IMG/VR virus record: IMGVR_UViG_3300038682_000244
Location: 1-21,787 of that record
Strand: one strand, 5' to 3'
Source: a virus
Length of the DNA: 21,787 nt
The position numbers and the translations under genes were made by a program. A model generated the notes under the pieces. It was given only the letters and a program-made list of their open reading frames with translations. It made no database searches and was not told where the DNA came from. This document shows, in pieces, positions 1,233 to 21,787 of this stretch (position 1 is the stretch's first letter; each line of letters opens with the position of its first letter).

Positions 1233-1874
1233 TTACTCCGCTGCCTGCGGCATGAACCGGCTCTTGAGATCTTCGACCATGTCGTCCAGTTCGGATACGA
1301 AGTCCCGCACAGCCTTTTCCATTTCAGCAATGCGGATTGGATCTCGCTTCACTCGAGTTATCGACAATTGCATTTCGGCCGGCAGCCGAGGATCGAACGA
1401 TAGGAAGTCGCACCAATCGCGCTCGCACGTCGCCATCTGCCACTGCATTTGCGAGACGTAGTCTGGGTCAATTGCCTTACCCAAAAGCGAGTCGATGTGG
1501 GTGGCAGTGTTCGGGCACTTGATCTCAAGCATGCCGTCGTCGCCGATCAGCCGATCAGGTGACACGCCGGACATGTCGATCTTGGGATGAATGACGAAGC
1601 CGACTTTCACCGGATCGACACCGTGCATGAACGAGTAGGTATCGACGGCAAGTTGCTCGTTGTCCTTGCCCCACTGCATTTCTTTGCTGGTGAAGCCTTC
1701 CGTCTGGAATCCCGATAAGCGCTCAGCAACGAGCTGGCCCATGTAGGTCTTCCTGGATGCGCTGACGCCGGACTTCGTGCGCCGCATGATATCTGCAACG
1801 CGAGATCCTGTGACGCGCCCTGCTCGGGCAGCGTTCCATTCAGGTGTGCCTTGTTCGCAGTCAATTATCTTCAC
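1233..1874 (-). CDS. YqaJ-type recombination exonuclease (lambda Exo fold)
   Basis: This 213-aa PD-(D/E)XK nuclease of the YqaJ family would digest one strand of a duplex end 5'-3' to expose DNA for annealing. The N-terminal QGTPEWNAARAGRVTGS matches the family opening (Q-G-[ST]-x-E-W-x-x-x-R...T-[GA]-S). MQWGKDNE near 66-73 is the conserved glutamate helix, SPDRLIGDDGMLEIKCP at 105-121 carries the metal ligands D107, E117 and K119, and QMQWQMA (142-148) is the trailing helix. The length is normal for the family. It uses GTG with GGGAGG 6 bases upstream and overlaps the previous gene by 14 bases. With the ERF protein in the same operon it forms the phage's Red-like pair. Confidence 0.93.
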   Translation of the reverse strand: MKIIDCEQGTPEWNAARAGRVTGSRVADIMRRTKSGVSASRKTYMGQLVAERLSGFQTEGFTSKEMQWGKDNEQLAVDTYSFMHGVDPVKVGFVIHPKIDMSGVSPDRLIGDDGMLEIKCPNTATHIDSLLGKAIDPDYVSQMQWQMATCERDWCDFLSFDPRLPAEMQLSITRVKRDPIRIAEMEKAVRDFVSELDDMVEDLKSRFMPQAAE

Positions 1875-4324: not shown

Positions 4325-5359
4325 TTAATTCGCCGTCTCGGCCTGCTTCGCTTTCTTCATGCGGTTTGCGTGGGCTTTACGGATCATCGTCATTGCGTTC
4401 GCAAAGTTCACCGCATGAATGACTGCTAGACGCTCCTTGATGGCGGCAGGACCGCGGTCTTCTCCAAGAGGCTCCAGCTTTCCGGTCTTCAGGAACCCAT
4501 CGATGTCTGTACCGGTCTCGGCGATGAGATCGTACATTTCGTCGATCTGCTTTTCGCTGATTGTCGCCGGCCGCTTCGCACTGGCCGCGTTGCCGTCGTC
4601 GTCGGCGGTGGCAATGTTGAAGATCATGCAAAACAGATAGCGCCGGCCGTAGGTCATCGTGGAGCCGAACGTGTGCGTCGCTGTCTTGTTGGCGTTGCCC
4701 TTCAGACCCGTGCCATCCATCGGAATGTCGGCCTTGTAGGTCTTCGAGAAACCTCCGTGCGAAACTTCGCAGGTGACGCGATAGTGGTTTGGAACGTCGC
4801 AAGGTTCTGTGCCGAACGAAGTCGAAAGGCCGTGCTTGGCAATGATCGGCTGGGCGACTTCCAGGATGGCAGCCAGATCGGCATACTTTGAATGCGTCTG
4901 GTCATTCCTCTTCTTGGCAACGACCGGGCCTATTTCGAACTGGGCCGCAGCCATGGCGTCTTTAAATGCGACTTCAGCCTGCTTGCTCTTCATGGCTTCG
5001 TGCATGCTGAAAAGACGCTCCATGCGATCCAAATCTACTTCTGGGTCGCGAGCGGCACGCTCGATCAAAGCCATTAGGGCGGAAGTGTCGCTTTGCACGG
5101 AAACGTGCGTAGCTTCGGATTGAACTGCTGGTGCGGCGCCGTTTTTGACTACGGCAACCTCTTGGATGCGCTGAGGCTCTTCGAAATACTTGCCGACGGC
5201 GGACTTGAATTCATCCCAATCGTCCGTCGTGAATTTCTCGGCTTTATTTTGGTATTCGAAAGCTGGAACGAAGGTCATAGATTTGTCCTCATTCCGGTAC
5301 ATCATGCCGACGTTGCGACCGTTCCACTTGATTTCGTCGTGTTGGCCTAGTTCAATCAT
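4325..5359 (-). CDS. erf: ERF-family single-strand DNA annealing protein
   Basis: This 344-aa recombinase anneals complementary single strands made by the exonuclease. The start MIELGQHDEIKW is chosen because GGAG lies about 8 bases upstream and the ATG is one base after the previous stop; the frame is open for 26 more codons upstream but only over the neighbour. The N-terminal ~90 residues are a variable region. The ERF core follows: EVAFKDAMAAAQFEIGPVVA, then HSKYADLAAILEVAQPIIAKHGLS, a beta region ending in TFGSTMTYGRRYLFCMIFNI, then ATADDDGN. The Y-G-R-R-Y-x-x motif and the 'KYADLA.IL..' helix are diagnostic. The C-terminus is Lys/Ala-rich and could bind DNA or host SSB. It pairs with the YqaJ nuclease in the same operon. 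Confidence 0.93.
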   Translation of the reverse strand: MIELGQHDEIKWNGRNVGMMYRNEDKSMTFVPAFEYQNKAEKFTTDDWDEFKSAVGKYFEEPQRIQEVAVVKNGAAPAVQSEATHVSVQSDTSALMALIERAARDPEVDLDRMERLFSMHEAMKSKQAEVAFKDAMAAAQFEIGPVVAKKRNDQTHSKYADLAAILEVAQPIIAKHGLSTSFGTEPCDVPNHYRVTCEVSHGGFSKTYKADIPMDGTGLKGNANKTATHTFGSTMTYGRRYLFCMIFNIATADDDGNAASAKRPATISEKQIDEMYDLIAETGTDIDGFLKTGKLEPLGEDRGPAAIKERLAVIHAVNFANAMTMIRKAHANRMKKAKQAETAN

Positions 5360-5360
5360 T

Positions 5361-5684
5361 TCATGCTCCAATTGGGTGCAAGCGGTCGGCGCCGGCATCG
5401 AAATACGTGTCGCGAGGCTCGCGCTGGTATTGCGCAAGCTTCAGCATCAAACGCTCGTAGGTGTCGGGGCAGCGATGGATGGCACGCTCTGCCATTCTGC
5501 ACTTGTCGAAGTCTTTGAATGACGTGGAGCCAGCAGTCGTGGTGATCGTCAGTTCTTCGACACACCAGTTCAGATCACACCGGTTGTCGACGTAAATGCT
5601 GACTTCGCCGCTCATGGCATTCGGCAGCCATTGGCCTGGCGCGAACTCGTAATCAAGATCTTCAATGTCAAATGAAAAGCTCAT
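5361..5684 (-). CDS. small phage protein of unknown function (107 aa)
   Basis: Starts MSFSFDIEDLDYEFAPGQW, overlapping the previous stop by 4 bases (ATGA). An N-terminal beta-rich half (VSIYVDNRCDLNWCVEELTI) is followed by a charged helical half. It lies directly before the ERF gene with a 1-base gap, so the two are co-translated. No recognised domain; a role linked to recombination or host takeover is only guilt by association. Confidence 0.66.
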   Translation of the reverse strand: MSFSFDIEDLDYEFAPGQWLPNAMSGEVSIYVDNRCDLNWCVEELTITTTAGSTSFKDFDKCRMAERAIHRCPDTYERLMLKLAQYQREPRDTYFDAGADRLHPIGA

Positions 5685-5983: not shown

Positions 5984-6616
5984 TTATGGGCGCCGCGGCC
6001 ATTTGCGTCTGCGGTGCTCAATTAGAGTTGCCAAAACCATGCCTGGCTGGTCGTCATTTATTGTTACGGTGAGATAGTCAGAGCTCAAGGGGACGAGATC
6101 GTAGGCATTTCCCCTTGGCCTATATCGACGCAGCACCGGGCTGTCGTTGTAGGTGGCAACAACATCATCGCCGTCACGAGGCGGTATTGATGGGCTTACG
6201 ATAGCGATGTCTCCAGGCACATAATCTGGAGCCATCGACTGGTCTTCAATTAAAACGCCGTAACAATCTTCTGGGTATTCAGATTCGACAGGTATAGCCG
6301 TTCGAGACTCATGCCGCATTGGTCCCTCGGATGTGATGTCGCTTAGATTTATGACTGGGATGAATTTTGATGCATTATCCACCGAGTAGGGATTTTGTTG
6401 CAACTTTATGACACCCGGCAAGGAGAAAGTGTCGATGGACCCCCTCTCCAGGCCAAGAATTCTTTCCAAGTCTTTAAATCTTCTAGCACGCGGAAATCCC
6501 CTGCGGTTTTCCCAGTCGCTTATAGCTTGGCGGGAAACGCCAAGCTTTTCAGCCAGTTCGACCTGAGAAAGACCGATCGCTTCGCGTCGGGCCTTGATGA
6601 TATCCGCTAAGTCCAT
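5984..6616 (-). CDS. CI-like prophage repressor, HTH plus S24 domain
   Basis: A 210-aa protein. The start MDLADIIKARREAIGLSQ is chosen because AGGA lies 4 bases upstream of this ATG; a TTG four codons earlier is possible. Residues 10-40 form an HTH_3 domain (LSQVELAEKLGVSRQAISDW). Residues about 85-205 are an S24/LexA-like C-terminal domain with EDQSMAPDYVPGD (S127 is the nucleophile position). The partner lysine appears to be replaced: the aligned stretch reads PVLRRYRPRG. The usual Ala-Gly or Cys-Gly cleavage site is also not evident (DITSEGP there). It would hold the lysogenic state by binding the operators on both sides of its gene. Loss of the dyad suggests it may not self-cleave in the SOS response. 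Confidence 0.88.
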   Translation of the reverse strand: MDLADIIKARREAIGLSQVELAEKLGVSRQAISDWENRRGFPRARRFKDLERILGLERGSIDTFSLPGVIKLQQNPYSVDNASKFIPVINLSDITSEGPMRHESRTAIPVESEYPEDCYGVLIEDQSMAPDYVPGDIAIVSPSIPPRDGDDVVATYNDSPVLRRYRPRGNAYDLVPLSSDYLTVTINDDQPGMVLATLIEHRRRKWPRRP

Positions 6617-6684
6617 GCCATCCTGCAATCAATTGTTACGCAGGAACACTGACGCGGGTATTTGCCGACGAAAACGACGGTTTT

Positions 6685-6992: not shown

Positions 6993-7083
6993 GTTTCCAG
7001 ATTTTGTATCCGCGCGTTTATGCGGATTGGTTGCCCCGCGGCTGGTGGTTTGTACGCGTCACCACCATGCGTGGATTTGTGTG

Positions 7084-7161
7084 TGCAGGGTAGAGCAGTC
7101 CGGTCAGCTCGCTTGGCTCATAACCAGGAGGCCGTCGGTTCGAATCCGACCCCTGCAACCA
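7084..7161 (+). tRNA. tRNA-Met (CAU), initiator-like
   Basis: A full cloverleaf can be drawn: acceptor TGCAGGG (7084-7090) with CCCTGCA (7151-7157), D-stem GAGC/GCTC (7093-7096, 7107-7110), anticodon stem CTTGG/CCAGG with loop CTCATAA (7117-7123, anticodon CAT), T-stem GTCGG/CCGAC with loop TTCGAAT, discriminator A and encoded CCA (7159-7161). Its A11:U24 D-stem pair and the GAGCAG..CCGGT..GCTC D-arm are those of initiator tRNAs, whereas elongator tRNA-Met normally has a pyrimidine at 11 and a purine at 24. The 1:72 pair is a weak U:A. It may charge formyl-Met for phage mRNAs. Lysidine-type Ile tRNA also carries CAU but does not share this D-arm. Confidence 0.92.
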
Positions 7162-7280
7162 AATCACTTCGGCGATAGCGCCGGGAGGATAGATGCGACG
7201 CACTGCGAAGTTCGTCGATCATGCTTAGCGGTTTTCCGATCCCGCAATGGCATGCGCCTGTTCATCTGTCCTCCCTGCCC

Positions 7281-8260: not shown

Positions 8261-9373
8261 ATGGATACCATAATTTGTGGCTCTGTCAACAGTTCACACA
8301 CAAGCTACGAACAGGACTACGGCACAATTCTGCATCCCGATCAGAGTGACATGTTCGGCGCCGGCTCAACTTACCCGGCGAATGGCGGACCACCGATCGA
8401 GGACGACGAAGACCAGATGAGCGAGTTCGTAGACTGGCAGAAAATCCGCGCCGGCTTCGTCGCAATCAACCGTGAAATTCGCAACCACTGGCTTGTTGGC
8501 TTCGGGCAGCGCGCACCGAAAGCGATGGACGACAAGCGTCCGCAGTACGCCAAGTCGGAAGCCTGGATGGATCTCATCATGGAGTGCCAGTACAGAGCCG
8601 GCTCGGTGAACAACAATGGCCGTCGGATGGAGCTCAAGCCAGGCCAACTTCTAGGTGCCGTTTCGTGGTTGGCGGACCGCTGGAATTGGACGCCGAAGGC
8701 CGTTCGCTACTTCCTGGATCAGCTCGAAGAAGAGGGAATGATCACTAGATCGAATGGCGAACAGGATGGGGTCAAAACAGAAACGTTGCCGAACTCGGAC
8801 AGAACCCGGTCTAAAAAGGGCAATAAAAAGGGCAAGTTCGCAAGCGTCCTAACAATATGTAAATACTCACTTTATCAGCTTGGGGCTAATTCAGATTGGC
8901 AAGTTGAAGGAAGCGAGATTGGCAAGTTAGGGGCAATTAAGGGGCAAGTTAAGGGCAACATTATAAGGAAGGAACAAAGAAACAAAGAAACAAATAAGAA
9001 GATAGGGCCTTCGGCCGATGACGTGCGCTGGGCGCACGCCCGATGGAACGATCTTGCCGACAAGGTCGGATTGCCGAACAGCCCGAAGCTGACACCCAGC
9101 CTGGAAAAAAACATCCGCGCCCGACTTCGCGAACATGGTCGCGATGGATGGGAGTCGGCACTGCGCAAGGTTTACGATTCCGCGTTCCTGCAAGGCAAAA
9201 ACGACCGAGGCTTCACCGCAAGCCTGCCGTGGTTCGCCGGCCCCCAGAATTTCGACAAGGTCGCTTCCGGCTCGTACAGCGGCAAGCAGTCGGCGCCGAA
9301 GACGCGACAGCAATCCGTCGAAGATGCTTCCCGTGACGCGTTCATGGACTCGATCCTCAACGGGAGATCGTGA
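8261..9373 (+). CDS. lambda O-like replication initiator protein
   Basis: A 370-aa protein. Residues 1-52 are an acidic, low-complexity leader (an alternative ATG at 8417 would begin MSEFVDWQKIRAGF). Residues about 55-165 look like a winged-helix initiator domain: IRNHWLVGFGQ, KSEAWMDLIMECQYRAG, LKPGQLLGAVSWLADRWNWT, KAVRYFLDQLEEEGMITRS. A Lys/Gly-rich linker (about 185-245) is encoded by the iteron cluster. The C-terminal part (about 250-340) has DDVRWAHARWNDLADKVGLP and a helical DnaD/O-like tail. It should bind the origin within its own gene and load the helicase, whose gene follows directly with overlapping stop and start. Confidence 0.82.
   Translation: MDTIICGSVNSSHTSYEQDYGTILHPDQSDMFGAGSTYPANGGPPIEDDEDQMSEFVDWQKIRAGFVAINREIRNHWLVGFGQRAPKAMDDKRPQYAKSEAWMDLIMECQYRAGSVNNNGRRMELKPGQLLGAVSWLADRWNWTPKAVRYFLDQLEEEGMITRSNGEQDGVKTETLPNSDRTRSKKGNKKGKFASVLTICKYSLYQLGANSDWQVEGSEIGKLGAIKGQVKGNIIRKEQRNKETNKKIGPSADDVRWAHARWNDLADKVGLPNSPKLTPSLEKNIRARLREHGRDGWESALRKVYDSAFLQGKNDRGFTASLPWFAGPQNFDKVASGSYSGKQSAPKTRQQSVEDASRDAFMDSILNGRS
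8818..9002. repeat. iteron cluster plus A-rich tract: putative phage replication origin
   Basis: Inside the initiator gene, copies of a GGCAAGTT-type element occur at 8818 (GGGCAAT), 8830 (GGGCAAGTT), 8896 and 8919 (both within GATTGGCAAGTT, 23 bases apart), 8930 (GGGGCAATTAA), 8941 (GGGGCAAGTTAA) and 8953 (GGGCAACA). The last four are 10-12 bases apart, one helical turn. A purine-rich, AT-rich run (about 8957-9002, with repeated ACAAAGAA) follows directly. Iterons within the O gene next to an AT-rich strand-opening tract is the arrangement of the lambda origin. Confidence 0.62.
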
Positions 9374-9375
9374 TC

Positions 9376-10830
9376 GTGAACTTCGAGCCCAAGCAATCCG
9401 ATTTCAAATACGCTGGCGAACGGACCGACTTGACGCGTCAAGCCATCGACGTCGAGCAGGCGGTTATCGCCTACGGCTTGGCAGAGCCTGCGCGATACAT
9501 GCCGATGATTTCGCAGATTTCGATCGACGACGTCACCGAACCTCTGCACCAACAGATCATCAGCCTGATGCAGTCGCTGCACGATGACAAACGCAACCCG
9601 TCGGTGGAGCTCGTCGCCGACGCGATTGGAAACAAAACCGAGATCGAGCCTGGACTGACCGTCCGGCAGTACCTGCGCAACATCGTCAACTCAGGGTTTG
9701 ACGGTGCATGGGTAAGTTCGATTGAATCTTTGATTGACGCCCTGGCGGATAATTCATCCAAGATCGCGCTCCAGAGGGCCGCCAACCAGCTTCAAGCATG
9801 CCTGGGTGGATCATCCTACCGGACAACGCGAGAAACCGCTCAGGAAGCCGCTATGGCGATTGACGAGGTTCTTGCAAAGCTCCGCACCGGCAAGCTTCGA
9901 ACCTACGACGCGGAAGGCGCCGCAGAAATCGCGCTTGCCCACATGCGGGGCGAAAGCCCTGATTGGCCAACAACCGGACTAACAGCGCTCGACAACCTGA
10001 TCGGCGGCTGGCCGCGAGGTCAGATGACGATCATCGCCGGCCGTCCCGGCATGGGTAAATCGGCGATCGCGACGTCCGCAGTTCTTCGCGGCGCCATGGC
10101 CGGACATCCAACAGCTTTCTTCAGTCTCGAAATGGTTGGCGAGCAGCTTGGGTCTCGACTGCTGACCGATCTGGCTTTCCGGCATGACCGACCGATCTAC
10201 TACCAGGACATCATGCGCAAGCGCATCGAGATGGATATCGACGTGCGCCGGCTGGAGGACGCCAGGAATCGCCTCAAAGATCTTCCGCTAATGATCCACG
10301 AGCAGCGCGGCATGACGCTGACCGACATCTACGTCAACGCCCGCAAGTTCGCCAATGAGTTTGACCGTTCCGGCCAGCGTCTTGAGACAATCGTTGTCGA
10401 CCACATGCTGCTCGTAAACCCGCCACCAAACTGCAAAAGCCGATACGACGAGGTTCGCAAGATCTCGAAAGCTCTATCCGAGCTTGGCGACGAATTGGAC
10501 GTTTCCATGGTTGCTCTTTGCCAGCTCAGCCGTGGAGTAGAGGGGCGCGACAACCGGCGCCCGACCATGTCCGACCTGCGCGATTCTGGAACGATCGAGG
10601 AAGACGCCTCTTTGATCATCTTCCCGTTCCGTCCGGAATACTACCTCCGCAACAAGGAGGACAACCCAGACAAGGAAGCCAAGCGTCAGGACGCCCTTGA
10701 GAAGGTCAAGGGATTGATCGAGTTCGGCGTTGATAAAAACCGCAATGGCGAGACTGGAACGATTGAAGCGTTCTGCAGCATCGGCGCCAACGTTATTCGT
10801 GATCTTTCTTATCGAAGTGGGGCGGCATGA
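9376..10830 (+). CDS. DnaB-family replicative helicase
   Basis: A 484-aa helicase. The GTG at 9376 has GGGAG 9 bases upstream; the GTG at 9370, which overlaps the initiator stop, would add two residues. The N-terminal domain (about 1-130) is the DnaB helical bundle (AVIAYGLAEPARYMPMI...). The C-terminal RecA-like domain has TGLTALDNLIGGWPRGQM, Walker A GRPGMGKSA, FFSLEM, the Walker B region TIVVDHMLL, LCQLSRGVEGRDNRRPTMSD (sensor), and the arginine-finger region SGTIEEDASLIIF. It unwinds DNA at the fork and would be recruited by the O-like initiator upstream. The length is normal for DnaB. Confidence 0.95.
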   Translation: MNFEPKQSDFKYAGERTDLTRQAIDVEQAVIAYGLAEPARYMPMISQISIDDVTEPLHQQIISLMQSLHDDKRNPSVELVADAIGNKTEIEPGLTVRQYLRNIVNSGFDGAWVSSIESLIDALADNSSKIALQRAANQLQACLGGSSYRTTRETAQEAAMAIDEVLAKLRTGKLRTYDAEGAAEIALAHMRGESPDWPTTGLTALDNLIGGWPRGQMTIIAGRPGMGKSAIATSAVLRGAMAGHPTAFFSLEMVGEQLGSRLLTDLAFRHDRPIYYQDIMRKRIEMDIDVRRLEDARNRLKDLPLMIHEQRGMTLTDIYVNARKFANEFDRSGQRLETIVVDHMLLVNPPPNCKSRYDEVRKISKALSELGDELDVSMVALCQLSRGVEGRDNRRPTMSDLRDSGTIEEDASLIIFPFRPEYYLRNKEDNPDKEAKRQDALEKVKGLIEFGVDKNRNGETGTIEAFCSIGANVIRDLSYRSGAA

Positions 10831-10994: not shown

Positions 10995-11407
10995 TGTACG
11001 ACGATATCAAAAAATTGCTTGCGGAAGGATTGACGCAAGCAGAGGTGGCGAGGAGTGTCGGGTGCTCATCTGGATATGTCAGTAGAGTCAGCAGAGCGGC
11101 GCAAGAGACCCGTATGCACCAGGCCGGACGAGAGACATTGGCCAGCAAGATCATGGCGCTTGACGACGGAAAACGGACGACAAGGCAAATTGCGGATGAG
11201 CTTGGCACATCCATTGAATATGTCCGCGTTGTTATGCGTCAGCGAAAGGGTGGTGGGTCCAGCGATATCGATCGCAGATACCGCAGCAGCAGACTTGGCA
11301 AGGCGACGGATGACAGGCGCGCGCAAAAGCACCTTGCCTATCAACGCACACTTGCTGTCACCGGAGACTACTCCGAAGCACGCAAGGCCTACAGGGAGGC
11401 CAAATGA
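10991..11407 (+). CDS. DNA-binding protein with two HTH motifs
   Basis: A 139-aa protein beginning at ATGATG (10991 or 10994), with GGGAG 8 bases upstream; the frame is open further left but that part only overlaps the zinc-finger gene. Two helix-turn-helix units are visible: GLTQAEVARSVGCSSGYVSR (about 14-33) and KRTTRQIADELGTSIEYVRV (about 57-76). The tail is basic. Tandem HTH units of this resolvase/sigma-like kind suggest a phage transcription regulator of the middle or late genes, a Q-like role being one possibility. This is inferred from position and fold only. Confidence 0.75.
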   Translation: MMYDDIKKLLAEGLTQAEVARSVGCSSGYVSRVSRAAQETRMHQAGRETLASKIMALDDGKRTTRQIADELGTSIEYVRVVMRQRKGGGSSDIDRRYRSSRLGKATDDRRAQKHLAYQRTLAVTGDYSEARKAYREAK

Positions 11408-12198
11408 TGACCTACAAGCGAAAGGAAGTCATTGGCCCCCACACTCTCTACCTGGGAAACTGCCTAGAGATAATGAAATCGCTGGGGCGATTTTCTCATA
11501 TTGTGTCAGATCCGCCTTACGAGAACTGGATGCATGCCGCCAAGAATAGCAAAAGCGGTCCGTCTCGGATCGATGGTGGCCCAACTCTAAAATCATTGGA
11601 TTTCAAATCAATTGACGAAATTAGAGAGCCATTCGTCCATTGCGTAGAACAATTATGCGATGGCTGGCTGATTGTTTTTTGCACCCCAGAGGGCATTGCA
11701 AAATGGGCCGACGAGATCAATTGCAGTGCACTCAGATACAAGCGCGCATGTGTTTGGGTGAAGCCGGATGCAACCCCCCAACTCAATGGACAAGGTCCGG
11801 CGCAGGGTGCCGAAAACATCGTCACAGCATGGTGTGGATCTGGGTATTCAAAATGGAATGCTGGAGGAAAGCGCGGCGTCTATACGCACCTGACAAATAA
11901 CAAAGATCGACACGGCGAGCATCCAACTGAAAAACCAGTATCTCTTATGATGGAACTCCTTTCCGATTTTACATCGGGAGGAGACGCAGTTTTGGATCCT
12001 TTCATGGGGAGCGGAACCACAGGCGTTGCTTGTCAAAAATTAGACCGTCGGTTCACTGGCATAGAGGTGTCTGAAAAATATTTCGACATTGCGTGTCAGC
12101 GCATTGAGGAAGCTATGAGACAGCCTGACCTTTTCATGGGTGAAAGAAAGAAGGCTGATCAATTGTCGATGGATATGACGTGCGCGCAAGGCAATTAG
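11407..12198 (+). CDS. orphan DNA adenine-N6/cytosine-N4 methyltransferase
   Basis: A 263-aa SAM-dependent DNA methyltransferase. Motif IV is SDPPYENW (about 34-41); the target-recognition region lies in the middle; motif I follows in the C-terminal half as LDPFMGSGTTGVAC, with FTGIEVSEKYFDIA as motif II. Motif IV before motif I marks the beta class. No restriction enzyme adjoins it, so it is probably an orphan enzyme that marks phage DNA against host restriction or times replication or expression. GGAGG lies 7 bases before this ATG; ATG at 11404 is an alternative. Base composition looks somewhat more AT-rich than its neighbours. Confidence 0.93.
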   Translation: MTYKRKEVIGPHTLYLGNCLEIMKSLGRFSHIVSDPPYENWMHAAKNSKSGPSRIDGGPTLKSLDFKSIDEIREPFVHCVEQLCDGWLIVFCTPEGIAKWADEINCSALRYKRACVWVKPDATPQLNGQGPAQGAENIVTAWCGSGYSKWNAGGKRGVYTHLTNNKDRHGEHPTEKPVSLMMELLSDFTSGGDAVLDPFMGSGTTGVACQKLDRRFTGIEVSEKYFDIACQRIEEAMRQPDLFMGERKKADQLSMDMTCAQGN

Positions 12199-15143: not shown

Positions 15144-15473
15144 ATGAACCGGCCAGGCACGCACCACAAAGACAGACTTCGCACGGCGCTTCTTCGTCGG
15201 GACGGAAGACACTGTCACTGGTGCGGCGATCGCATGCGTTGGCCATCCCAATGCGGGACGATTCATAGGCGGGACGACATGACGCTTGAGCACATTCGTC
15301 CGATATCGAGGAGCGGAAACAACAAGCTTTCGAATCTCGTTCTGGCTTGTCGAGATTGCAATGAGGAGCGCGGTGACGAACTTCTGACATTCGTCGACAT
15401 CGTTGCAGCGGAACGGCCAGTACCAACGGCACTGGAAGAGCAGCTTAGAACATGGATGGAGACGGTAGCGTGA
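15144..15473 (+). CDS. HNH endonuclease
   Basis: A 109-aa stand-alone HNH nuclease: HCHWCGDRM (zinc CxxC, about 23-31), the catalytic strand MTLEHIRPISRSGNNKLSNL (about 46-65), and LACRDCNEERGD (second CxxC and the closing helix). All key residues of the HNH/McrA-type beta-beta-alpha-metal fold are present. Small phage HNH proteins act in packaging, homing or host DNA breakdown; with no terminase here, a homing or DNA-processing role is more likely. Its last codons overlap the Fic gene (GTGA). Confidence 0.87.
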   Translation: MNRPGTHHKDRLRTALLRRDGRHCHWCGDRMRWPSQCGTIHRRDDMTLEHIRPISRSGNNKLSNLVLACRDCNEERGDELLTFVDIVAAERPVPTALEEQLRTWMETVA

Positions 15474-17629: not shown

Positions 17630-17793
17630 CTATCAAGCAGCGCCGTCGGCGCAAGTGTCCACACTGCGGAATTATCTCGATGCGCCCATGCGTTTCTGAG
17701 GAAACCCGCGCGATATGTATCCACTATGCGGCGATAGCTGCGGGAGATAGCGAAAATGCCAAAGGAAAGACTGTTCTCGGTGACACGAGCTGA
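17617..17793 (+). CDS. small zinc-binding protein (58 aa)
   Basis: MAEVAIKQRRRRKCPHCGII gives a basic N-terminus and a CPHC knuckle. Further cysteines at MRPCVSEETRAICIHYAA could complete a zinc site. GGGA lies 6 bases before the ATG. It overlaps the genes on both sides (12 bases and 38 bases). It is one of several small zinc proteins in this phage and has no assigned role. Confidence 0.52.
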   Translation: MAEVAIKQRRRRKCPHCGIISMRPCVSEETRAICIHYAAIAAGDSENAKGKTVLGDTS

Positions 17794-18145
17794 CTGCGAA
17801 TGGAATTACTATTCAGGATCCGGTGCTGGCGGCCAGCACAGAAACAAGCACAGGAATTGCGTCAGGGTATTCCACAAGCCGTCAGGCGCCCGGGGCAACA
17901 GCCAGGACCACAGGGACAAGTTATCGAACGAGAAGACTGCCTTTGAGAGAATGGCACACTCGCCTGAGATGCAGAAATGGCTTCGCATCGAGATGGCGAG
18001 ACATACCGGTGCTCTCGCTGCTGCTGAAGAGGCAACAGACATCGCAATGCGTCCCAGCAATCTTCTCGTTCAAGCGAAGGACGAAAACGGCAAGTGGGTA
18101 GCCTGGGAAGACAGGCACCAAGACGAACCGGAGATTGAGATTTGA
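17756..18145 (+). CDS. GGQ release-factor-like protein (RF-1 domain)
   Basis: A 129-aa protein with YYSGSGAGGQHRNKHRNCVR (about 18-37), the GGQ loop that triggers peptidyl-tRNA hydrolysis in class I release factors, followed by the matching 'VRVFHKPSGARG' strand and NEKTAFERM helix of the RF-1 domain. The stop-codon-reading domains of RF1/RF2 are absent, so it is like ArfB/YaeJ or other stand-alone GGQ proteins that free stalled ribosomes. The C-terminal tail is acidic, unlike ArfB's basic mRNA-channel tail, so it must reach the ribosome differently or act on another substrate. A ribosome-rescue or peptidyl-tRNA hydrolysis role is inferred from the motif. Confidence 0.88.
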   Translation: MPKERLFSVTRADCEWNYYSGSGAGGQHRNKHRNCVRVFHKPSGARGNSQDHRDKLSNEKTAFERMAHSPEMQKWLRIEMARHTGALAAAEEATDIAMRPSNLLVQAKDENGKWVAWEDRHQDEPEIEI

Positions 18146-18348
18146 AGCACCCATTCCTTGATGCAGTCATCCAAGACGGGCCAAACAATGGTTTGACTGT
18201 CGGCCAGTGCATAGCTTTTGGGCTAGCCCTGACAGGGGACAATAATTTTGATGAGGGCAGGGCGGAAAATGTCAGAGACAATTTAACAGAGCGCCGTCTG
18301 AAAGCACAACGAATGCTCAAGATGGGCGATGAGCACAGGAGGGGATGA
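18142..18348 (+). CDS. small phage protein of unknown function (68 aa)
   Basis: This uses a TTG start (MKHPFLDAVIQDGPNNGLTV when read as Met) that overlaps the previous stop by 4 bases, with GGAG 8 bases upstream; no ATG occurs in frame until very late. The protein has a small globular first half and a basic helical end (NLTERRLKAQRMLKMGD). Its stop overlaps the start of the DHH gene. No family is known. Confidence 0.58.
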   Translation: MKHPFLDAVIQDGPNNGLTVGQCIAFGLALTGDNNFDEGRAENVRDNLTERRLKAQRMLKMGDEHRRG

Positions 18349-19310
18349 TGTGGAAGCCTGAAATTTGTATCTATCACGGCAACTGCGATGACGGTTTTGG
18401 TGCTGCTTACGCAGTGTGGAAGCGATGGGGAGACAGCGTCGAATATGTTGCCGGTATCTACGGCAAAGCACCACCAGATGTAACGGACAAGAACGTCATA
18501 ATGGTCGACTTCTCATACAAGCGAGATGTGTTGGCCGCGATGGGGCGTGTCGCAAAATCGATCGTTGTTTTGGATCATCACAAGACGGCCAAGTCGGAAA
18601 TGATGGAGTGGGGATCTAAACAGCCGCCTTCAACACTTGAAAACAAACTCGCCAATTCTGAGTTCGATGTGGCGCATTGCCTGATGCAGAACTGCCTGCC
18701 GATTATCGCTTGGTTTGACATGGATAAATCGGGAGCCCGAATGGCTTGGGAATTCTGCCATCCAGGACTTCCAGTGCCGAAGTTCATTCTGCACGTCGAA
18801 GATCGCGACCTGTGGCGCTTCGATTTGCCGTATACACGTTACGTGTCTGCTGCAATTCGTAGTTATGATCACAGCTTCGAGCGTTGGGATGCTTGGGCCG
18901 ACGATGAGAATCTTATTGGCCTGATCCGCGATGGTGGGGCGATCGCTAGAGCGGAAAAGAAGCTGATAGCGCAGTTCGTAGAACAATCTTTTCAGGACAA
19001 GATCGGCGGATACAAAGTTCCAACGGTTAATGTTCCTTATCACTTTGCCAGTGACTGCGCGAACGACCTTCTTGCGAAATTTCCGGACGCCCCATTTGCC
19101 GCTGCTTGGTTTAAGCGAGGAGATGGTCGGTTTCAGTGCTCGTTGCGCTCAACTGACGACCGCGTTGATGTGTCAAAGGTCGCTGAGACTTATGGTGGTG
19201 GTGGTCATAGAAATGCTGCCGGGTTCGAGGTTCCAAGCGAAGCAGGGTTCCTAAAGGATGATCAGAGCACCATCGCCACTCCCCCACCCTCTGAGACAGG
19301 AGGGGAGTAG
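18348..19310 (+). CDS. DHH/DHHA1-family phosphoesterase
   Basis: A 320-aa phosphoesterase with the DHH motifs in order: ICIYHGNCDDGFGAAYAVW (motif I, paired Asp about 13-14), VIMVDFSY (motif II), VVLDHHKTA (motif III, the DHH signature, about 75-83), and WFDMDKSGARMAWEFC. The DHHA1 substrate-binding domain ends in ETYGGGGHRNAAGFEVP (GGGGH motif). Relatives include NrnA (nanoRNA and pAp hydrolase), cyclic-dinucleotide phosphodiesterases and RecJ. Its size fits the NrnA/GdpP-core group, not RecJ. Possible roles are nucleotide salvage, oligonucleotide recycling, or destroying nucleotide signals of host defence; the substrate cannot be told from sequence alone. AGGAGG lies 5 bases before this ATG. 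Confidence 0.93.
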   Translation: MWKPEICIYHGNCDDGFGAAYAVWKRWGDSVEYVAGIYGKAPPDVTDKNVIMVDFSYKRDVLAAMGRVAKSIVVLDHHKTAKSEMMEWGSKQPPSTLENKLANSEFDVAHCLMQNCLPIIAWFDMDKSGARMAWEFCHPGLPVPKFILHVEDRDLWRFDLPYTRYVSAAIRSYDHSFERWDAWADDENLIGLIRDGGAIARAEKKLIAQFVEQSFQDKIGGYKVPTVNVPYHFASDCANDLLAKFPDAPFAAAWFKRGDGRFQCSLRSTDDRVDVSKVAETYGGGGHRNAAGFEVPSEAGFLKDDQSTIATPPPSETGGE

Positions 19311-19950: not shown

Positions 19951-20001
19951 ATGAAAATCCTTGAACCAACACCTGAGTACATCAAAAGGATGGGGGAGTG
20001 A
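19951..20001 (+). CDS. possible 16-aa mini-ORF before dUTPase
   Basis: MKILEPTPEYIKRMGE begins 3 bases after the previous stop and ends at the base where the dUTPase ATG begins. A GAGGG lies 10 bases upstream of its ATG. It might couple translation into the dUTPase gene or be meaningless; its fit between its neighbours is the main support. Confidence 0.28.
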   Translation: MKILEPTPEYIKRMGE

Positions 20002-20441
20002 TGGATAACCCAACACTACTATTTAAGCGGATGCGAAATCACGATCTACCTTTGCCGTGCTACGAGACAGACGGATCGTCAGGCATGGACCTTCGTGTTG
20101 TAGAGGATATCAGCATCCAGCCTCTGAGCGTTGCCAAGGCACCAACCGGCTGGGCGGTTGAGATCCCAAAAGGCTATGAAGGCCAGATCAGGATTCGCTC
20201 AAGCGCTTCACAGCAAAACCTAATAATTCCAAACTCGCCAGGCACGATTGACAGCGATTACCGCGGCGAAGTCATCATTCTTCTTCGAAACATGTCGCTC
20301 GACCGTATCGTGATACCGGCCGGACGGCGGATCGCTCAACTAATCATCGCCCCAGTTGCATTGGCGCACGTTCAAGTCGTCGACGATTTGTCGACGACTG
20401 AGCGCGCAGATGGCGGCTTTGGAAGCACTGGCCAGGACTAA
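20001..20441 (+). CDS. dut: dUTP diphosphatase (dUTPase)
   Basis: A 146-aa trimeric dUTPase that turns dUTP into dUMP and pyrophosphate, keeping uracil out of phage DNA and supplying dTMP synthesis. All five motifs are present: 1 GSSGMDLR (about 26-33), 2 RIRSSASQQN, 3 GTIDSDYRGEV (with the uracil-binding Tyr), 4 RIAQLIIAP, 5 RADGGFGSTG at the C-terminus. Motif 2 is unusual in reading RSSAS where RSGLA is common. GGGGAG lies just upstream; a GTG at 19998 is an alternative start. It is the last recognisable enzyme of the operon. Confidence 0.95.
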   Translation: MDNPTLLFKRMRNHDLPLPCYETDGSSGMDLRVVEDISIQPLSVAKAPTGWAVEIPKGYEGQIRIRSSASQQNLIIPNSPGTIDSDYRGEVIILLRNMSLDRIVIPAGRRIAQLIIAPVALAHVQVVDDLSTTERADGGFGSTGQD

Positions 20442-21138: not shown

Positions 21139-21770
21139 TCAGTTCTTCACAAGGTCTATGCAGACCTCCTTTCCGTTCGGCTCTTTCCACTTCACCAGCT
21201 TGCCCTGGGCAACAAGCGCCTTTACAACTCTGTGCGCCTTTGTGTCGTCGCCCCGGATTGCTCTAGCGACCTCCCTATTGCTGAGCGGGCGGCCAGCCTT
21301 CCGGCGAGCAACCTCAATAGGGTGGAGATGCGGGGTTATGTCTTTCATCTTGTGATCGACGGTCCCAGCGAATTGTTGTCGCCGGTCGATGATCGGCCCA
21401 AGGTTTGAGAAAATCAGGACCGACAAAGCCGGAAAGAATGTGCCGCCAAGAAACAACGCCAGCGGCTGGAAGAATGGCTGATACAAGGCAACCGTGTCTT
21501 CCGTCATCCAAAAGAGCAGAGCAGCAAACCGCTTTGCTCCGCTGTTCACCACCTTGCGAGCTCCAAGATCTGCCCGACGACTGCGGGCTTCGTCCAGGCG
21601 CTGCTTAGCGATGGCAGCAGCTTTCCAATGACCGACGCATAGCGGCCACCGGCCAGGATCAAGCGTTGCCGGATCCTTCCCGTCACATTCAGCCATGATG
21701 CCGCGCTGGGCGGCAGCCAGACTGTCTGAATTGGTTTCGATGTCGGTTTTGGCTTCATCGATCGCCAGGC
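21139..21770 (-). CDS. partial membrane protein with C-terminal winged helix
   Basis: The 3' part of a minus-strand gene, cut by the right end; the frame stays open past 21696 (the first visible ATG) into the edge, so the start is missing. The last 17 bases (21771-21787) are adapter and must not be translated. About 210 residues remain: a helical region (HWKAAAIAKQRLDEARSRRA), an apolar segment FFQPLALFLGGTFFPALSVL extending to about 30 residues (one or two membrane spans), then PLSNREVARAIRGDDTKAHR and VVKALVAQGKLVKW, a winged-helix-like end. A membrane-anchored DNA-binding or regulatory protein is possible. No family name is offered. It ends at the strong terminator. Confidence 0.66.
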
Positions 21771-21787
21771 GATCGTGACTGGGAAAC
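21771..21787. other. random-PCR (SISPA) primer sequence, not biological
   Basis: GATCGTGACTGGGAAAC is the exact reverse complement of GTTTCCCAGTCACGATC, the 17-base constant part of the tagged random primer commonly used to amplify virome DNA or RNA. It sits precisely at the end of the window. A 17/17 match at the very end is not plausible by chance. The few bases next to it (about 21762-21770) may derive from the primer's random 3' part. Confidence 0.93.

Follow-up and report, generated by a model that had tools for sequence, protein, structure and literature searches.

The window analysed here, a stretch of 21,787 nucleotides, spans the whole of its virus record (21787 bases) and appears to be part of a phage of the temperate type; its features are collected in Table 1. 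A tRNA-Met (CAT) gene is located on the plus strand (7084-7161), with the repressor region on one side and the replication genes on the other; a minus-strand open reading frame that overlaps it (7018-7203) is probably spurious. A small RF-1-domain protein with a GGQ motif is encoded at 17756-18145 on the plus strand (PHROG 3122, E 2.8e-27); it resembles a ribosome-rescue or release factor, here in a phage. No near match to the whole window at the DNA level was found among GenBank phages, and the right end, where the last minus-strand frame runs into the contig boundary, had no relative in blastn and tblastn searches of GenBank phages and plasmids. This last frame matched nothing in Pfam or PHROG, and no homologue of the gene was found in IMG/VR, GenBank phages, plasmids or genomes, protein-pattern scans included.

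Table 1. Features of the window, by position
Feature	Position	Strand	Basis or remark
YqaJ nuclease	1233-1874	-	
ERF recombinase	4325-5437	-	
S24-type repressor	5984-6628	-	
DnaB helicase	9370-10830	+	
DNA methylase	11404-12198	+	
HNH endonuclease	15144-15473	+	
DHH phosphoesterase	18345-19310	+	
dUTPase	19998-20441	+	
Last minus-strand open frame	21139-21770, into the tag up to 21786	-	ORF list; ATG at 21696, open upstream to the contig end
Probable random octamer, GCCTGGCG	21763-21770	-	Inferred from the G bias at listed ends and the published N8 form (PMC6016902)
Fixed 17-base tag of random-PCR (SISPA) primer A/B, GTTTCCCAGTCACGATC, untrimmed	21771-21787	-	Exact match; published primer; tag at contig ends only (IMG/VR matches listed)

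The final 17 bases of the window read GATCGTGACTGGGAAAC and match the reverse complement of GTTTCCCAGTCACGATC at all 17 positions. The latter sequence is given in PMC261870 as primer B of a random-primer amplification, whose primer A has nine random bases added to it; it recurs as primer B alongside a primer A with nine random bases (PMC5492393) or in nonamer-tailed form (PMC5242460), and with eight random bases it constitutes SISPA-A (PMC6016902). The tag lies on the minus strand with its 5' end outermost, reading inward from the contig end, and because the window is the entire record, it is flush with the true end of the contig. Nothing else in the 21,787-nt window matches the tag at three or fewer mismatches, shuffled sequences averaging 0.04 such matches, and the probability that this exact 17-mer would arise, pointing inward, at one end or the other was calculated from base composition to be approximately 1.4e-10. 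At the left end, which starts GGTTAAATTCGTTCC, both the full tag and partial forms of it were sought and neither was found. An earlier, sequence-only reading of this DNA had recognized the last 17 bases as the reverse complement of the SISPA/random-PCR tag and had described the left end as lacking it; both observations are borne out.

That reading had also proposed a search for the tag in reads and related contigs. In IMG/VR, the exact sequence was found on at least 120 contigs, and the counts of position that follow apply to the 153 matches listed on them: 146 were flush with a contig end (offset 0), the other seven lay 2-16 bases from one, and none was interior. The forward matches listed occurred at left ends and the reverse ones at right ends, so that all of the listed tags point inward; in the stored contig ranges, the locus ends of the listed tagged stretches coincided with the contig ends. 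Among the tagged contigs listed, whose lengths span about 4 to 70 kb, many bear the tag at one end only and several at both. The reversed 17-mer, used as a control, gave no matches in IMG/VR. Within 84,980 bacterial and archaeal genomes (257 billion bases), the tag was found 16 times, always in the interior and never at a contig end. The end-only, inward distribution in IMG/VR is the pattern of a primer, unlike that of a natural motif. Seven of the contigs (L016, L022, L032, L034, L061, L062 and L082) carry 2-16 extra bases outside the tag near one end, which suggests that fragments were joined (chimeras) or primers concatenated; in L032, the sequence adjoining one of its two tags is nearly the reverse complement of that adjoining the other.

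Pairs of overlapping contigs allowed the site at which similarity stops to be located. From the first base past its tag, the right end of L085 is 100% identical to L092 over 383 bases (bases 18-400), and opposite the tag itself L092 carries unrelated sequence, the 17 tag bases being unlike the template. The same behavior was seen with L119 and L039 at lower identity. As identity breaks off at the tag in both pairs, the tag in these contigs does not stem from the template. With respect to the window, the 25 bases adjoining its probable octamer were found in no other IMG/VR contig.

The footprint of the primer probably extends beyond the tag. At the 153 listed ends, each of the first eight bases past the tag is G in 34-50% of cases vs a background of 22%, and at the ninth base the value is 21%; confinement of the bias to eight bases points to a random octamer, with G-rich primers favored. 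Positions 21763-21770 of the window are thus probably also derived from the primer, the length of eight being deduced from this bias, and the primer-derived stretch as a whole appears to comprise 21763-21787, within which the 17-base tag is the only part that is certainly foreign. Having annealed to the template, the bases of the octamer are probably mostly right, albeit less reliable than the rest of the window, and they may include mismatches to the true phage sequence. The terminal 48 bases can form a short hairpin (CGATCGC-CAG-GCGATCG, 7-8 base) over the border of tag and octamer within 21763-21787 (z -2.0). Stems of at least six bases between the tag and its adjoining sequence were counted at 12 of the 153 listed tagged ends against approximately 2.7 in interior stretches, a comparison uncorrected for the G-rich octamer; other tagged ends may carry a mild excess of such short pairings.

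The consequences for the last minus-strand gene follow the same boundaries. In its frame, five codons (F P S H D) lie wholly within the tag and a sixth, mixed codon (R) combines tag and random primer, all of them false, which agrees with the earlier estimate of about six false codons on the 5' side of this gene; the ATG at 21696 is well within real sequence. The G+C content by codon position is 0.62/0.46/0.67 over the 24 codons from the ATG to the mixed codon, compared to 0.64/0.45/0.63 downstream of the ATG. Given this similarity on both sides of the ATG, the contig end probably cuts the gene, beyond the mere lengthening by the tag, as judged from this short stretch.

A number of other origins for the terminal 17 bases can be considered. 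They could be genuine phage sequence that equals the primer by chance, the contig happening to stop there; natural copies of the 17-mer do exist, as the 16 genomic matches attest, and an open frame passes through the tag of the window without a stop. The calculated chance across two ends, noted above, speaks against such a coincidence, and the natural copies are interior whereas all 153 listed IMG/VR matches are at contig ends or within 16 bases of them, making this origin extremely improbable. A variant in which real phage DNA coincidentally equals the primer, the tag anneals there preferentially, and the contig stops at this natural tag-like site is likewise very unlikely.

The presence of the same terminal sequence on many viral contigs would also be compatible with a real end of the genome or a terminal sequence conserved among phages, such as a packaging site. 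However, the sequences adjoining the tag are unrelated and vary freely past the G-rich octamer, the tagged contigs listed differ widely in length, and the sequence is that of a published laboratory primer; moreover, at the site of the L085 tag L092 continues with different sequence, and for L085 this overlap refutes the reading as a true end or packaging site. For the window, a natural terminus is most improbable. Cloning-vector sequence offers another conceivable source, as the forward (-40) region of M13 resembles the tag; the M13 (-40) primer, GTTTTCCCAGTCACGAC, is similar to it. Unlike this primer, the window has GTTTCCC, with three T residues, and the GATC end, which together are exactly those of the random-PCR tag, and inward of the tag the open frame of the phage contig continues, leaving a vector origin with very little likelihood.

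A primer tag from random PCR (round A/B) is, with near certainty, the explanation, and positions 21771-21787 are almost surely a known technical artefact, an untrimmed laboratory primer rather than phage DNA, without biological novelty. The earlier proposal that the primer discloses how the sequence was made is upheld by the publication of the tag, its restriction to contig ends among the IMG/VR matches listed and its rare, interior occurrence in genomes; its companion, that the right boundary is artificial, finds support in the identity of the primer, the end-only recurrence and the contig pair that loses similarity at the tag. The source library is inferred to be a virome from the usual use of the primer and the presence of the record in IMG/VR. 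Primer A, comprising the tag and about eight random bases, would have bound phage DNA at approximately 21763-21770 through the random bases at its 3' end and been extended; primer B, which is the tag by itself, would then have served to amplify the resulting fragment by PCR. With the tag left on the reads and no other fragment spanning the site, the assembler would have closed the contig on the primer. In one published study, the 17-base tag is stated to have been removed from reads ahead of analysis (PMC5492393); for the window, this trimming was evidently omitted or incomplete.

The importance of these observations is one of quality control only. As the right boundary is artificial and five to six codons are false, claims concerning the phage terminus or the N-terminus of the last gene should be discarded, and positions 21771-21787 are best trimmed off. 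At least 120 further viral contigs in the public collection bear the untrimmed tag, which could likewise create false codons there and, where present at both ends, constitutes an artificial terminal inverted repeat.

Compared with the random-PCR (round A/B, SISPA-type) primer GTTTCCCAGTCACGATC-N8/N9, the window has all 17 fixed bases the same, placed at the contig end and directed inward, and the base composition past the tag fits a random stretch. The one difference concerns the length of that stretch: the primers of PMC261870, PMC5492393 and PMC5242460 carry nine random bases, whereas the bias at the tagged IMG/VR ends extends over eight, like the N8 form of PMC6016902.
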